A stretch of 64,000 nt of DNA from Leucobacter sp. wl10 (GTDB taxonomy: Bacteria; Actinomycetota; Actinomycetes; Actinomycetales; Microbacteriaceae): assembly GCF_003569785.1 (NCBI RefSeq), contig NZ_KZ983997.1, forward strand, positions 62,001 through 126,000. The letters run 5' to 3'. Of this stretch, positions 6,593 through 53,328 are shown piece after piece (the first letter of the stretch is position 1; each line of letters starts with the position of its first letter). The translations under genes were made by a program, and so were the position numbers. The notes below the pieces were generated by a model. That model saw only the letters and a program-made list of their open reading frames with translations, made no database searches and was not told the origin of the DNA.

Positions 6593-7249
6593 TCACCAGC
6601 CTCGCGCGATCCAGGCCTCGAGATCGGGCTGCTCGTGGGCGATCGTCGTACTCTCCCCGTGTCCCGGCCGCGCGCTCGTCTCGATGGGCAGGGTGAACAG
6701 GCGGGAACGGATGGAGGCGATGATCTGATCGAAGCTGGAGTAGTCCCAGCGCGTCGCGCCCGGCCCGCCTCGGAAGAGCGTGTCGCCCGAGAACACGGTC
6801 CCGAGCGTCGGCGCCGCGAAGCAGACCGACCCGGGGGTGTGCCCGGGGGTGTGCAGCGCCACGATCTCTGCGCCCGCGATCGAGAAGCCCGCTCCGTCGG
6901 CGAGCTCGAAGTCGGGCGTCCCGGTGCCGTAGGTCTGCTCCCACAGGAACAGGTCGGCCGGGTGCAGATAGACGTGGGCGTCGAGCTGCTCCGCGACCTC
7001 GAGCGCCGCATTCACGTGGTCCTCGTGGCCGTGGGTGAGCAGGATCCCGAGCGCTTCCCGGTCGCCCACCGCCCGCGCGATCGCTTCGGCGTCGTGCGAA
7101 GCGTCGATCACGATCGCCTCGGCGTCGTCGCCCACGACCCACACGTTGTTCTCGAGTTCGACGCCTCCGGTCGGATACCCGTCCCGGCCGATCCCGACGA
7201 GCCCGCTCGTCACCACACGATCGATCCGCACCTCAGACATGTCGCTCAT
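6593..7249 (-). CDS. Metallo-beta-lactamase fold hydrolase (Rv2260-like)
   Basis: This 218-residue protein has the dinuclear zinc motif THGHEDH (His73, His75, Asp77, His78), followed by HTPGHTPGS and SGDTLFRGGPG, as in glyoxalase II-type hydrolases. The N-terminal ENNVWVVGDDAEAIVIDAS strongly recalls the actinobacterial subgroup usually encoded beside mycothiol-dependent formaldehyde dehydrogenase. Hydrolysis of an S-acyl-mycothiol is therefore a sensible guess. That dehydrogenase gene is not in the window. Two in-frame ATGs (7249 and 7240) are possible, and GAGGAGAGG is better spaced for the second. Confidence 0.88.
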   Translation of the reverse strand: MSDMSEVRIDRVVTSGLVGIGRDGYPTGGVELENNVWVVGDDAEAIVIDASHDAEAIARAVGDREALGILLTHGHEDHVNAALEVAEQLDAHVYLHPADLFLWEQTYGTGTPDFELADGAGFSIAGAEIVALHTPGHTPGSVCFAAPTLGTVFSGDTLFRGGPGATRWDYSSFDQIIASIRSRLFTLPIETSARPGHGESTTIAHEQPDLEAWIARGW

Positions 7250-7274
7250 CCTCTCCTCGGTCGGATGCGCCGGT

Positions 7275-8120
7275 TCACGCCCGCGTCACGATGACCGGGC
7301 ACGGCAGGGCCTGCAGCACGCCGTGGCTCACCGAGCCCAGCAGCAGCCTCGAGATGCCGCCGCGGCCGCGGCTGCCCACGACGAGCAGCTCGGCGTGCCC
7401 GGCGGTCTGCACGAGCGCCGACACCGGCGGCGACTGAACGATCTCACGACGAATCTCCAGATCGGGGTACCGTTCGGCGAGGCCCGCGACGCCGATGGCG
7501 ATCGCCTCCTCGGCCGCCGAGCGCTGCGACTCGACGAGCTCCTCGCTCCACAGGTACTCGAGGCCGGGGGTGAGCGGCGGCATCCACGCGTACACGGCGA
7601 TGAGCGGCACGCCGCCCCGGGAGGCCTCCTCGGCCGCGAACGAGATCGCCTTCTTGGAGGCCTCCGAACCGTCGACGCCGACCACCACGCCGCCCCCCGG
7701 CTGCGCCTCATGCTTGGGGATCACCGCGACCGGGCAGTGCGCCGTGGCGGCCGCCTTGACGGCGCGGGTGCCGAAGAACGATCCCGCGAATCGGCTTCCG
7801 CCGTGTGCGCCGAGGATCAGCAGGTCGGCCCGCTTGGAGGCCTCCTCGATCTCGGCGATGGGGTGCCCGACCACGGCGGTGCCCGAGATCTTCCCCGCGA
7901 AGCCGAGGCTTCGGGCGTATTCCGTCTCGGCCTGCAGCATCTGCTCCGAGGCCTCCTGGGCCTCGGAGAGGAACGCGACGCTCTCCGAGAGGAACGAGTC
8001 GTCGGCCACGTGCAGCAGCTCCACCGAGGCGCCGCGCGCGGTTGCGCGCGAGAGCCCCCATGCCAGCGCCACCCGGCTCTGCTCAGATCCGTCTACTCCG
8101 ATGAGGTACTTCTCCGACAT
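7275..8120 (-). CDS. Universal stress protein with two UspA domains
   Basis: This 281-residue protein has two tandem Usp domains (about 1-140 and 145-281). The second keeps the ATP-binding signature VGSRGRGGISRLLLGSVSH, and the first has the related LGAHGGSRFAGSFFGTRAV. ATP-binding tandem Usp proteins of actinobacteria are linked to hypoxia, stationary phase and general stress. The gene lies 42 bases after gapB on the same strand and may be cotranscribed with it. Confidence 0.93.
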   Translation of the reverse strand: MSEKYLIGVDGSEQSRVALAWGLSRATARGASVELLHVADDSFLSESVAFLSEAQEASEQMLQAETEYARSLGFAGKISGTAVVGHPIAEIEEASKRADLLILGAHGGSRFAGSFFGTRAVKAAATAHCPVAVIPKHEAQPGGGVVVGVDGSEASKKAISFAAEEASRGGVPLIAVYAWMPPLTPGLEYLWSEELVESQRSAAEEAIAIGVAGLAERYPDLEIRREIVQSPPVSALVQTAGHAELLVVGSRGRGGISRLLLGSVSHGVLQALPCPVIVTRA

Positions 8121-8162
8121 CTTCCGGTCCTTTCTCGAGGGTGTGTGGGGTCGGCGAAACGA

Positions 8163-46602: not shown

Positions 46603-49296
<2,694 letters not shown>

Positions 49297-49377
49297 GACC
49301 CGTGTATATTCCCCAACGTGGGCGTATTCGCGCAGCTTCTCCGTGGATTTGATCACTGAACCCCGCGTGATGACAGC

Positions 49378-49677
49378 TTAGATGCCCCCGCTGTCATTGC
49401 AGAATGGACCGGGTTTCTCAACCGCGACCATCACACACGCTTTCCCTGTGGACGCGCCACTCAACCCGGTACTCATGCCGCCCACGAAGGTCTCATCGAC
49501 TTCCACGAGCCCGTGGAGTTTCTCCCGGCCGTCGCGCACCATCACACGGCGGAACTTGTGCAGCCACGCCCACGCCGTCTCATACGACCGGAACCCGAGG
49601 ACGCGTTGCAACGATTGGGCGCTCATCCCGTTCTTCTGCGAGGTGATCAACACGCCAGGGCAATATACCCCATGCAT
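49378..49677 (-). pseudogene. IS1595-family transposase fragment
   Basis: About 95 codons remain of an ISXO2-like transposase. They cover the segment ITSQKNGMSAQSLQRVLGF, the TAWAWLHKFR helix and the first catalytic region GLVEVDETFVGG. The N-terminal zinc ribbon and the later DDE residues are missing, so the element is dead. No terminal repeats were found. It marks the edge of the insertion between acnA and dxs. Confidence 0.8.
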
Positions 49678-49705
49678 AGCTCTCACGGTTCTGGATAGAG
49701 GGGCT

Positions 49706-50236
49706 TCAGTGTGCGGAGTGCTGCGCGGCGGGGGTGAGTTGAGTCTGCAGTTTTTGGCGGATCCTCGAGTATCGTTTGCGGGAGGTATCGGGTTTGAGCC
49801 CGAGAACGGCTCCGGCTTCAGCGATGCCGAACCCTTCCCAGGCGACAAGTAGCAGCAGTTCCTGGTCTTGGGCCCGGAGCTTCGCGATGGCTTCTGCGAG
49901 GCTTTTGTCTTCATGAATGTGGATCTCGGCTTCTTGGGCCCGCAGTTCTTGTTTGAGGTGCTCGGTGAGCGTGAGGCGCTGCAGTCGTCCTTTCCGGCAT
50001 GTGGAGAGCACGTTCCGGGCGGTGCCGTATACGTACTGGCGGAATCGGGTGAGATCGTCCGGGAGACGGTTGGGTCGCTTGAGGAGTTCCACGATGGTGT
50101 CGCTGGCGGCGTCGGCGGCGTCGTCATAGTTCCCGAGGCGACGTGAGAAATACCCGACGAGTTCCGGAAGCATGTTGCCGAGCATCTTCTTTGCGTTGTG
50201 CACGCGAGCAGTCTCGCTCTGCTCCGGCTCTCTCAC
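49706..50236 (-). CDS. RNA polymerase sigma factor, sigma-70 family (ECF-like)
   Basis: This 176-residue protein has a region 2 (ELVGYFSRRLGNYDDAADAA, FRQYVYGTARNVLS) and a region 4 helix-turn-helix near the C-terminus (LLLVAWEGFGIAEAGAVLGL, RKRYSRIRQKLQ). It lacks regions 1 and 3, as in extracytoplasmic-function sigma factors. It starts with GTG overlapping the upstream membrane protein gene by four bases (GTGA). That upstream gene is the probable anti-sigma or sensor. The divergent exported-protein genes are its likely targets. Confidence 0.85.
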   Translation of the reverse strand: MREPEQSETARVHNAKKMLGNMLPELVGYFSRRLGNYDDAADAASDTIVELLKRPNRLPDDLTRFRQYVYGTARNVLSTCRKGRLQRLTLTEHLKQELRAQEAEIHIHEDKSLAEAIAKLRAQDQELLLLVAWEGFGIAEAGAVLGLKPDTSRKRYSRIRQKLQTQLTPAAQHSAH

Positions 50237-51075
50237 GGGGTCTCGTCCGGGGATTGCGCGGTGAGGGAGCCGGCCAGGATCCCCCCGCTGAGTTCGCCTC
50301 TGTCGTTTCCATCCCACAGTTCGGTCCAGTCGTAGAACTGTGCGTATGCCTGGGCGGCGGCATAGTCTCCGCCGCCGATCATGCGCATCCACTCGCGAGT
50401 CTGCTCAGCATAGGCGCCGCGGGATGTGGCCTGTTCCGCCGGCCAATCCACTGATCTCTCCAATACGGCTCCTATGGCCTTCATGCGACCGTCGTCGCCT
50501 GTGTCGTAGGCGGCGAACCAGGCCCGAAGCCAGGCTCTGCGCGCTTCATTTTCGAGCATGGTGTCGATCACCACGCTTTCTGCTTTCACGCCTTCTCCGC
50601 CAGGGCTGTTCGACGCGAGATACTCGCTCTGGGAGAACCGGCTGAAGAAGCCATCGAGCACGTCATCCCAGGTGACGCCGTCGGGCAGCGGCAAGTCTCG
50701 GGGCGCGACCGACGCGATATAGCCGTTGAGATCGGACGACCCCATGTCGATCCACTCAGCACCTGGAGCGCCTTCCGGTCCCGGAGTGAGCAGGTCCTGC
50801 GCCTCATCGGGCGCAGAACCGTCTTCCTCCGCATTGAACGTGCCCGTCTGCGCCCCGAAGACGCTACTCGCAATGGCGGCGGTGGGCACCGCGAGAACTC
50901 CGCAGACCAGAAGCGAAGCCACCGAGAGGTACCGCAGCCGCCTGCGCTGCCCGCGCGCTGCGACTTCCGCCAGGTTCACCAGCAGTGCGCTGGTGCTCTC
51001 ATCGATCATCGGCGTCGGCCGGGCTTGGGAGGCCAGCCGCCGGTCGAGCTCGGAGTCAAAACGGGACGGGTCCAT
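50233..51075 (-). CDS. Single-pass membrane protein, probable anti-sigma factor or sensor
   Basis: This 280-residue protein has about 47 cytoplasmic residues, one transmembrane helix (YLSVASLLVCGVLAVPTAAI, about 49-68) and an acidic extracytoplasmic domain of about 200 residues with no family I recognise. The layout, and translational coupling to the sigma gene, fit an anti-sigma factor. A zinc-binding HxxxCxxC motif is absent, so it is not a ZAS-type anti-sigma. AGGAGG lies five bases before the ATG. The order anti-sigma then sigma is the reverse of the common one. Confidence 0.7.
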   Translation of the reverse strand: MDPSRFDSELDRRLASQARPTPMIDESTSALLVNLAEVAARGQRRRLRYLSVASLLVCGVLAVPTAAIASSVFGAQTGTFNAEEDGSAPDEAQDLLTPGPEGAPGAEWIDMGSSDLNGYIASVAPRDLPLPDGVTWDDVLDGFFSRFSQSEYLASNSPGGEGVKAESVVIDTMLENEARRAWLRAWFAAYDTGDDGRMKAIGAVLERSVDWPAEQATSRGAYAEQTREWMRMIGGGDYAAAQAYAQFYDWTELWDGNDRGELSGGILAGSLTAQSPDETP

Positions 51076-51107
51076 GCCTACCTCCTAGCGGCGTTTGCAA
51101 CAGTACC

Positions 51108-51133
51108 TGTCACTTTCCTCGCGAAACGTGACA
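51108..51133. promoter_or_regulatory. Inverted repeat between divergent sigma and exported-protein genes
   Basis: TGTCAC (51108-51113) and GTGACA (51128-51133) form a perfect 6-base inverted repeat. It encloses TTTC and GAAA as a second, slightly offset pair. It lies 33 bases upstream of the anti-sigma start and 58 bases before the first exported-protein start, where a shared control site would be expected. Confidence 0.45.
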
Positions 51134-51190
51134 TCAACTTCGTCGTCCATCGTTTACCTGCAGAACGACACAAGAAGGCTATGGTTAGAA

Positions 51191-51811
51191 ATGTACCCGT
51201 ATTGTTCTGAAGGGTGGATAGTTATAGAAATTAGTAGGTACGCGCCTGTGGCAGCTGTGGTGATTGCCGGTGGATTTTTTGCGTTCAGTGCGGTTTCGGC
51301 GGCCGTCGCCGAAGACCAGCCACAAGGATTGGCGGGGGAGCGGCAGAGCCGGGAAGCTTCACTCTTCATCGGCGACGAACCGGTGTTCTATACCCCTCAA
51401 GAGGGCATTGAGAAGTTTGCGAGGATCGTGAACGCTGACTCGGCACTTCAGGGGCTCGACATCAGTATCGCCATGGACGGCGCACCAGCTATGTTCCCGA
51501 ACGCCGACAAGGACGGCTACCCGATTAAGTACGAATCCGGCTATATCGAATCAGTTGCCGCAACCGCGTCGAGGTGTATTCAAATCTCGGCCTGGATCTC
51601 CGACCCCGCGATCTCCTCCGATGAGGTGCGGAAGCTTTCTGATCAGCAATTCCAGGAGTACGCGAGCGTTCCAGCGGTGGCAGAGTTGAGCAACGCGAAC
51701 GAGGAAATGTCAGGAACACTCACATCAGCACGTGCAGCCGGCGAGGACCCTGTTGTATTCGAAGCTAAAGAGACCTGCGGGGTGTTCGGCCTGAACGGAG
51801 GCGCCCCGTGA
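51191..51811 (+). CDS. Exported protein, unknown function
   Basis: From the ATG at 51191 this protein has 206 residues. A hydrophobic segment (VAAVVIAGGFFAFSAVSAAVA) follows a short n-region, so it is probably secreted with cleavage after AVA. A second start, GTG at 51248 with AGTAGG upstream, would give a shorter signal peptide. A TTGTTC-n17-TAGAAA promoter inside the longer version supports the shorter one. The mature part is acidic with two cysteines (about positions 148 and 198). I do not recognise the family. It overlaps the next gene by four bases. Confidence 0.6.
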   Translation: MYPYCSEGWIVIEISRYAPVAAVVIAGGFFAFSAVSAAVAEDQPQGLAGERQSREASLFIGDEPVFYTPQEGIEKFARIVNADSALQGLDISIAMDGAPAMFPNADKDGYPIKYESGYIESVAATASRCIQISAWISDPAISSDEVRKLSDQQFQEYASVPAVAELSNANEEMSGTLTSARAAGEDPVVFEAKETCGVFGLNGGAP

Positions 51812-52272
51812 AACGTGGAATGCGGAAAGCGGCGATCCTCTACTCCATTGCCGCAGCGCTGGTCGCAGGCGGAACCGTCAACGCTGCACCCAGCACGGCT
51901 ACGTCCTCGGAAGCGGTGTTCTACATCGATCAACTCGCAGTGACGTCCGGAAGATACGATGTGTATCAGTGGGGCTACAAGCGGACCCTGGGGTCGAGTA
52001 CGCCATCCGCGTCATACATTCACAATGGATGGAATGTCGCGACCGGTATCTATACCTTCAGAATGGGGTTACGGGATACGTCCGGCAACCAGTTCGCAGG
52101 CGCGGTCATCACATATCCAACTTCCTTCTACGGAACGAACTGCACTCTCACGACAGGAGCCGGAATCACAGGTTCCAAGCCTTTCTATCTCAACACGCGG
52201 TGGGACAAAGCGGGTGGCGGGAATCCTGCCCAGCGCACCTTCTATGGGGAGTTGCACTGGAATGGACCTTGA
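51808..52272 (+). CDS. Secreted small protein, unknown function
   Basis: This 154-residue protein has a basic start and signal peptide ending near VNA-A (residue 26). The mature protein of about 128 residues is rich in Tyr, Trp, Gly and Thr, with one cysteine, and looks like an all-beta fold (VYQWGYKRTLGSSTPSASYI, ITYPTSFYGTNCTLTTGAGI). No known family was recognised. The GTG start overlaps the preceding stop (GTGA), so the two are made together. Confidence 0.65.
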   Translation: MKRGMRKAAILYSIAAALVAGGTVNAAPSTATSSEAVFYIDQLAVTSGRYDVYQWGYKRTLGSSTPSASYIHNGWNVATGIYTFRMGLRDTSGNQFAGAVITYPTSFYGTNCTLTTGAGITGSKPFYLNTRWDKAGGGNPAQRTFYGELHWNGP

Positions 52273-52369
52273 GCCGGAAGGCGCCCGCCGAATAGGGCTC
52301 CGGCTGCTGGCGCCTTTTGATAGGCTTCCGAGGTGACGTCGCCGTACACGCGATAGCGAGGAGACACCA

Positions 52370-52981
52370 GTGAAGAAACTCTCGATGCTGATCGTTTCGG
52401 TGGTTTCAACCGCATTGCTGTCTTCCTGCGCCGCGACGCCCGACAATACTCAGGCTGACAATGTTCCTGACCCGGTCACCATTCAGGAGGACCCGCGTCT
52501 CCCCAGGAACGGCGAGGCCGCTTCGGGTGAACTGCTGGCACTGGACGGATCTTCTATTGGGGCGGTGCGCGCGGTGTTCTGGGGCAACGAAGATGACTCC
52601 ATCTCGTCTGCCGACCTCGAGTTCACCGATATCGACCCGGCATACGACGGAACCCGGGTCGGTGGTTCGCTCGAACCCAGAGCCCCCGATGACCCCTGCT
52701 TCGATATCGGTATTCGCACGAGCGAAACGCCGCTGGACCTCACCGGAGACAATAACTCCGATCTCAAGCAAATCGACCCCGAGTACAAAGGCTACCTTTT
52801 ATACGAAGTCGTGCTCTACCTGGACCTGGAGACGGGGTATCGGGCGCCCTCTTTGGGATTTTTCGGGTGGGACGAGGATCCCGTGACGACAAAGTGTATT
52901 AATCCCGTGGTGGCGCGTGCCGAACTCGCATGGGATCAACCGTCTGCCACATCCAAACCCGCCCAATCGGACAGTCAGTAG
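52370..52981 (+). CDS. Predicted lipoprotein, unknown function
   Basis: This 203-residue protein has a signal peptide with lipobox LSSC (Cys20). The mature part is acidic, with two cysteines (around 108 and 176), and contains DLEFTDIDPAYDGTRVGG. It does not resemble a family I know. The GTG start has GAGGAGACACC upstream. It completes a divergent set of exported proteins opposite the sigma operon. Confidence 0.7.
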   Translation: MKKLSMLIVSVVSTALLSSCAATPDNTQADNVPDPVTIQEDPRLPRNGEAASGELLALDGSSIGAVRAVFWGNEDDSISSADLEFTDIDPAYDGTRVGGSLEPRAPDDPCFDIGIRTSETPLDLTGDNNSDLKQIDPEYKGYLLYEVVLYLDLETGYRAPSLGFFGWDEDPVTTKCINPVVARAELAWDQPSATSKPAQSDSQ

Positions 52982-52984
52982 CAC

Positions 52985-53328
52985 GCCTCTAGGATTCCCG
53001 ACAGGAAGAAGAAGCCTGAATCATCCCGGGGACGGGAGGGCTCTGCCGATCCTGCTTTCTGCAAAATCGGCGAGCAAGGACGCGGGCAAGGAGCGGCCTG
53101 GCACCTCGATATTCGGCGGCAGGTCCGACTCCCCACTCACCCAACGTCTTAATAGATGATGTCTGCTTCCTCGCCCTCGGACTCGGCACCCGCGCGAAGC
53201 CTTTGAATCCACGCGGAAACAAGTCTCTCGATCCGTGGTCGCCTGTTCCCGCAGGGCTCCATTACGTCCGGTTGACCGGCTGGCCGGTGCTCCCTGGTGT
53301 AGCGGCCCGGTGGGGCTACACTGAGAAG
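52985..53328. other. Intergenic stretch at the right edge of the accessory region
   Basis: No coding frame with convincing signals was found. The left half has mixed base composition. The right half holds the dxs promoter: TACACT (53317-53322) six bases before the dxs ATG. Confidence 0.5.

Follow-up and report, generated by a model that had tools for sequence, protein, structure and literature searches.

A probable two-gene ECF sigma/anti-sigma module beside unrelated cargo in Leucobacter sp. wl10

Operons encoding sigma factors of the extracytoplasmic function (ECF) type are commonly autoregulated and commonly encode their own anti-sigma factor, according to PMC8103513. Here we describe a gene pair that resembles such operons, located in a 64,000-nucleotide stretch (the window) of contig 11 of the Leucobacter sp. 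wl10 genome (G000 in our genome set). The pair consists of an ECF-type sigma factor and a membrane protein that is a putative anti-sigma factor, and it is divergent from three genes for predicted exported proteins, namely exp1 and exp2, which overlap, and the lipoprotein gene lipo. A sequence-only reading of the window had suggested that all five genes may be one self-contained system. The genes themselves are present and positioned as described there. The best explanation is probably a two-gene ECF sigma/anti-sigma module that sits beside unrelated cargo. What the analysis leaves is a Leucobacter ECF switch that is small and open to experiment, has a predicted promoter, and brings with it an anti-sigma-like protein family without a Pfam or NCBIfam match; the tempting five-gene system is removed as unsupported.

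The sigma gene occupies 49706-50236 on the minus strand (176 aa, GTG start codon at 50236-50234), and the membrane-protein gene lies immediately upstream of it at 50233-51075 (minus strand, 280 aa). The GTGA junction reported in the sequence-only reading is indeed there: the sigma start codon overlaps the TGA stop codon of the gene for the single-pass membrane protein at 50236-50233. Compared with the modules of ECF sigma factors and membrane anti-sigma factors described in PMC8103513, the Leucobacter pair shares a two-domain sigma factor, an overlapping single-pass partner and a bipartite promoter-like site, and the position of this site before the operon is consistent with autoregulation, as in those modules. 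The pair differs from them in that the membrane-protein gene comes first and its product matches no listed anti-sigma family. In addition, the -10 element reads CAGGTAC, whereas CGT is typical according to PMC8103513 and PMC3426412.

The sigma protein is a plain ECF (group IV) sigma-70 factor with regions 2 and 4 and without region 3. It was searched as 49709-50239, a form with one additional upstream codon (177 residues). This form matched Pfam Sigma70_r2 (E 1.2e-6, residues 24-78) and Sigma70_r4_2 (E 8e-10, residues 113-164), and it exceeded the cut-off of the NCBIfam sigma70-ECF family TIGR02937 (E 3.2e-17, 62.7 bits versus 42.9). The Pfam profile search returned no match for region 3. A second, distant ECF sigma factor is encoded elsewhere in the same genome (G000:C5:110329-110787, 33% identity).

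Another group to which the pair can be compared is ECF41, for which the promoter given in PMC3426412 is TGTCACA-n16-CGTC. The Leucobacter promoters share with it the -35 box TGTCAC(A/G) and 16-nt spacing, and differ in the -10 element CAGGTAC. The proteins differ as well. The Leucobacter sigma factor, at 176 aa, is without the C-terminal extension of ECF41, because little follows region 4, which closes at residue 164 of the 177 in the searched form, and its partner is a membrane protein and not a COE protein.

We looked for the pair in a main sample of 60 genomes: the own genome, 36 from other Leucobacter and 23 from other families. The membrane protein was present in ten, namely the own genome, eight of the 36 from Leucobacter, and G053 as the single carrier among the 23. 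In 10/10 of these carriers the sigma gene adjoins the membrane-protein gene, and in 10/10 the junction is an ATGA or GTGA overlap, with sigma in frame from the overlap in 9/10. The exception is G024, where the frame is broken and sigma does not read on in frame from the overlapping ATG. We also noted that the membrane-protein gene of G024 (L018, about 7000-8150) is out of frame near its start, which reflects either decay or sequencing errors. In a tree of sigma factors, the nine Leucobacter pair sigmas formed one group (support 96/98) against 11 other ECFs, and the sigma of the G053 pair fell outside this group. Seven of the eight other Leucobacter carriers have the pair at the same housekeeping locus, where the gene past sigma looks EttA-like by eye. 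The pairs of G028 and of the own genome are sited away from this usual locus, and the G028 pair is the closest relative of ours (sigma identity 58-59%). The conserved adjacency supports the view that the membrane protein and the sigma factor behave as one unit.

The distant pair of G053 (L020 7148-7864), from another family, keeps an AQTG stretch after the membrane helix and an ATGA overlap. Thus, the family extends beyond Leucobacter.

The membrane protein was said in the sequence-only reading to lack known anti-sigma motifs, and our searches agree. Searches of Pfam (E up to 10), of NCBIfam and PHROGs (both E up to 1) and of PADLOC (E up to 0.1) found no match for it, and the zinc motif Hx3Cx2C was not seen by eye in nine aligned N-termini. 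This alignment holds 9 of the 10 sequences and leaves out that of G024, with its frame broken near the start. Zinc is not required of all class I anti-sigma members, as stated in PMC7406223. Alignment with eight relatives points to a cytoplasmic N-terminus of ~50 aa, a single membrane helix and a helical extracytoplasmic domain. A structure model built from five sequences had a mean predicted local distance difference test (pLDDT) score of 61.4. Most blocks covering residues 111-240 scored 65-91, although the score fell to 44 at 151-160, and the N-terminus and membrane part, where helices were modelled at 3-17 and 26-77, scored under 60. Foldseek gave no match to the model at E 0.001, and the best VIA-align Z score was 6.2, a level that helical bundles reach by common arrangement. 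The model supports a helical outer domain for the membrane protein and backs nothing beyond that.

Gene order and the modelled N-terminus invite comparison with CnrY-CnrH, a class II system of Cupriavidus. There, the anti-sigma gene comes first, as the membrane-protein gene does in the Leucobacter pair, and a separate protein, CnrX, is the sensor, whereas the presumed sensing domain of the Leucobacter pair lies within the membrane protein itself. CnrY wraps its sigma factor with two helices (PMC7406223), and the cytoplasmic segment of the Leucobacter protein is predicted, by a low-confidence model, to form two helices with a linker. Judged by the usual make-up of ECF operons, which tend to regulate themselves and to carry the gene for their anti-sigma factor, and by its own anatomy, the membrane protein most likely acts as an anti-sigma factor, with a helical outer domain that would sense a signal. 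A literature search on sigma and anti-sigma factors in Leucobacter, judged by title and abstract, listed no paper about this pair.

We identified a predicted ECF-type promoter for the pair at 51103-51133 on the minus strand. It has the -35 element TGTCACG (51133-51127), a 17-nt spacer and the -10 element CAGGTAC (51109-51103), and ends 27 bases before the membrane-protein start codon. The site is conserved: (T/C)GTCACG-N16/17-CAGGT occurs upstream of 9/9 Leucobacter pairs, with T as the first base in 7/9 and C in 2/9, and the promoter of the G015 pair reads CAGGTC at the -10. The exact pattern GTCACGTT-N14/15-CAGGTA was found at nine sites in the 60 whole genomes, eight of them before pairs and the ninth in G003, a genome without the pair. 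The reversed control of this pattern gave 0 sites in the 60 genomes, and 0/100 shuffles of the window contained it. A looser pattern with the shorter spacing only had five sites in the nine pair-bearing genomes, all before pairs, with four for its reversed control. The G003 site (L079 4060-4087) ends ~50 bases upstream of a small plus-strand open frame beside an mfd-like gene, as judged by eye.

We considered a reading in which the membrane protein is some other kind of partner, not an anti-sigma factor, and a different regulator binds the conserved motif. The missing family match fits this reading, as does the gene order: a crude hydrophobicity count placed a membrane-protein-like gene just downstream of sigma in 15 of 21 other ECF loci, versus upstream in our pair. 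The same count, however, found an overlapping upstream membrane-protein-like gene in 3/21 of these loci (G045, G049 and G053), all with ECFs outside the Leucobacter pair group in the tree, so that the ECFs of G045 and G049 show the arrangement of our pair while standing apart from it. The stop/start overlap with the ECF gene in 10/10 carriers and a -35/-10 spacing as in ECF promoters also speak against another kind of partner, and we regard this reading as unlikely.

Our best reading is that the two genes form a self-activating module with a membrane-protein family unlisted in Pfam or NCBIfam; as a switch, the pair is of an ordinary type. In this module, the single-pass membrane protein would bind sigma through its short cytoplasmic N-terminal segment and keep it inactive, and an envelope signal acting on the helical extracytoplasmic domain would free it. 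Sigma would then drive its own operon from (T/C)GTCACG-N16/17-CAGGTAC, the site that is conserved before the pairs, and the conserved ATGA/GTGA overlap would couple translation of the membrane protein and sigma. The exp1, exp2 and lipo genes would lie outside the module, most likely as neighbours by insertion.

The sequence-only reading had also pointed to an inverted repeat shared between the two divergent units. A repeat with 6-bp arms does exist at 51108-51133 (TGTCAC at 51108-51113 and GTGACA at 51128-51133), and it overlaps the -35 and -10 of the pair's promoter. Among 2000 dinucleotide shuffles of the 115-bp intergenic stretch, 594 had as many 6-bp repeats as the real sequence, and therefore the repeat is no more than chance gives. 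The GTGACA arm was missing from 8/8 other Leucobacter orthologous promoters. As the promoter reads through the repeat and the GTGACA arm is not conserved, the repeat appears most simply to be the pair's -35 element plus bases at its -10. We rejected a shared operator for the divergent units on these two grounds, the frequency of such repeats in shuffles and the lack of this one in 8/8 Leucobacter orthologous promoters.

The same stretch holds a weak facing site at 51109-51137 on the plus strand, GTCACTTTC-N13-ACATCAA, directed towards exp1. Its -35 part has 7/9 consensus bases (8 counting a base seen in 1/9 sites) and its -10 part has 3/7 (4 counting a base seen in 3/9). With a matrix built from the nine sites, it scored 9.94 versus 29.61 for the pair promoter, which is itself among the nine, and it ranked 12 when every position of the window was scored at four spacings. 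Through this site, sigma might also drive exp1-exp2 from an overlapping divergent promoter, which would amount to strain-specific control of secreted proteins. The -35-like GTCACTTTC, correctly spaced from a -10 that matches in part, the divergent arrangement of the pair and exp1-exp2, and the low GC content common to the five genes at third codon positions (GC3), as if they had been acquired together, are all consistent with such control. However, the -10 agrees with the consensus at just 3/7 positions (4 with a minority base), the score is one third of that of the pair promoter, the -35-like arm lies across the -10 of the pair promoter and does not occur in the eight Leucobacter orthologous promoters, and the trio is missing around the nine other pairs. 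The case for divergent control of exp1 by sigma through the facing site is weak, and we consider this explanation unlikely. A bolder version, in which an undescribed anti-sigma/ECF pair of this lineage has taken over two orphan secreted proteins as its output and an overlapping divergent promoter of ~30 bp fires either the switch or the secreted genes, we take to be distinctly unlikely.

Preference for the two-gene module also follows the distribution of the other three genes. Co-occurrence of the five genes elsewhere had been set beforehand as the test of the self-contained system, and it was found in 0/9 other pair-bearing genomes: none of exp1, exp2 and lipo was detected within the 15-18 kb taken around the nine other pairs. 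Relatives of lipo occur in 5/36 other Leucobacter genomes, four of which are without the pair, and in G015, the only genome with both, lipo and the pair are on different contigs. None of the open frames beside these lipo genes, two of which (one in G015, one in G006) look like genes for exported proteins, gave a tblastn match to exp1 or exp2 at 1e-2. With the trio missing near other pairs and lipo occurring without the pair, the five-gene system fails the refutation test named along with it, namely independent occurrence of its genes. Evidence for a single system of all five genes is thus slight.

The five genes lie in a low-GC stretch between acn and dxs (49297-53328). This acn-dxs interval is 4.0 kb long and has 57-65% GC (500-bp steps, 49250 to 53249), compared with 65-76% in the flanks, and the GC3 of the five genes is 0.64-0.77 versus 0.95-0.97 in acn, dxs and the next gene. 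At the acn end is a remnant of an IS1595-family transposase (49381-49620, minus strand, profile positions 26-106 of 215), which scored 71.2 bits, under the cut-off of 75, and 21.1 bits for PF12762, under the cut-off of 27. We matched acn in 49/54 genomes and listed 30 acn loci, 29 of them from other Leucobacter. Among these 29 listed loci, dxs starts within 1.5 kb of acn in 21; of the remaining eight, five have an interval of 1.7-2.9 kb, and in three we found no dxs within 7.6 kb. Given the variable interval, the low GC and GC3 and the IS1595 remnant, we read acn-dxs as an insertion-prone interval and the five genes as probably acquired DNA. By eye, the acn-dxs cargo differs between Leucobacter genomes (loci L110-L119) and includes a lipoprotein, a signal-peptidase-like gene and transposases.

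Acquisition of all five genes at once, as a mobile unit with a selected joint function, would account for the common low GC and the IS1595 remnant, and the closest relative pair, that of G028, is likewise off the usual locus. Yet the G028 pair has no trio beside it, a second copy of the five-gene set was not found in the genomes searched, and the interval carries various other cargo in other genomes. We judge a mobile unit of this kind very unlikely, and favour the two-gene module beside inserted neighbours.

Several points nevertheless weigh against the two-gene module. The membrane protein fits no listed anti-sigma family at the thresholds used (Pfam E up to 10, NCBIfam E up to 1), and its model has low confidence at the N-terminus, where sigma would be bound. 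The exact promoter pattern was not found in G053 with its distant pair, the motif conserved before the pairs may be used by some other regulator instead of this sigma factor, and the pair search took in 36 of 53 other Leucobacter genomes. On the side of the neighbours, by rank only ~0.01 sites like the facing site, which was itself chosen after looking, would be expected in so short a stretch, so that some room is left for control of exp1 by sigma, and the common low GC3 of all five genes also fits joint acquisition of a unit.

The gene exp1 (51191-51811, plus strand, 206 aa, predicted exported) lies in a whole open reading frame of 51095-51811; its likely start is the ATG at 51191, which is uncertain. 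It overlaps exp2 (51808-52272, plus strand, 154 aa, predicted exported) by GTGA, and the N-termini of both read by eye as signal peptides ending in AxA. The gene lipo (52370-52981, plus strand, 203 aa, predicted lipoprotein) holds LSSC, again an export call made by eye. The description of the three exported proteins as unrecognised stands: searches of Pfam, NCBIfam, PHROGs and PADLOC gave sub-threshold profile matches only, the best at E 0.048 in PHROGs, and lipo matched TIGR03490 at E 0.06 with 11.8 bits, against a cut-off of 325.5.

Among the 60 genomes exp1 was found in the own genome only, and among 396 genomes drawn from the order it was found in the own genome, with one unconvincing match in G242 (E 6.2e-4). 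We rejected this match as a relative, as it covers residues 69-161 only, contains a stop and was not recovered when the 15 kb around it were searched by tblastn at 1e-2. For exp2, only the own genome had a match among the 60 genomes, 54 Leucobacter genomes and the 396 genomes of the order, and phage records gave none. Neither exp1 nor exp2 matched the plasmid collection, and no match to either was confirmed in viral contigs. The single-sequence model of exp2 was uninformative (pLDDT 36.5), and a PDB sequence search returned nothing but an unrelated antibody chain (E 0.9). A likeness of exp2 to lactococcin-972-like bacteriocins was considered and is not claimed here, given this PDB result and the lack of a Pfam match.

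Between exp2 and lipo we identified a hairpin at 52275-52319 (plus strand), the 3' arm of which ends in UUUUG. It folds at -24.1 kcal/mol (z -1.43), and 17/200 shuffles fold equally well. It was not picked up by a terminator scan, which was confined to loops of 3-8 and gave fewer sites in the real sequence than in shuffled ones. The hairpin may be a possible, though weak, terminator that separates lipo from exp1-exp2.

After the signal peptide, exp1 and exp2 have a common motif, E-P/A-VFY..Q (window 51377-51400 and 51910-51933), with 79% DNA identity over 24 bases; they are possibly distant paralogues, or the likeness is due to chance. A 9-codon open frame, ATG...TGA, at 51181-51210 (plus strand) overlaps the likely exp1 start and is preceded by AAGAAGG (51172-51178). 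This frame is also open further upstream, and it could be either a leader or accidental. At 51969-52295 (plus strand), exp2 is overlapped in another frame by a second long open frame, and the exp2 pattern of GC1<GC2 (GC content at first and second codon positions) is unusual. We favour the exp2 frame over the second one because of the exp2 signal peptide.

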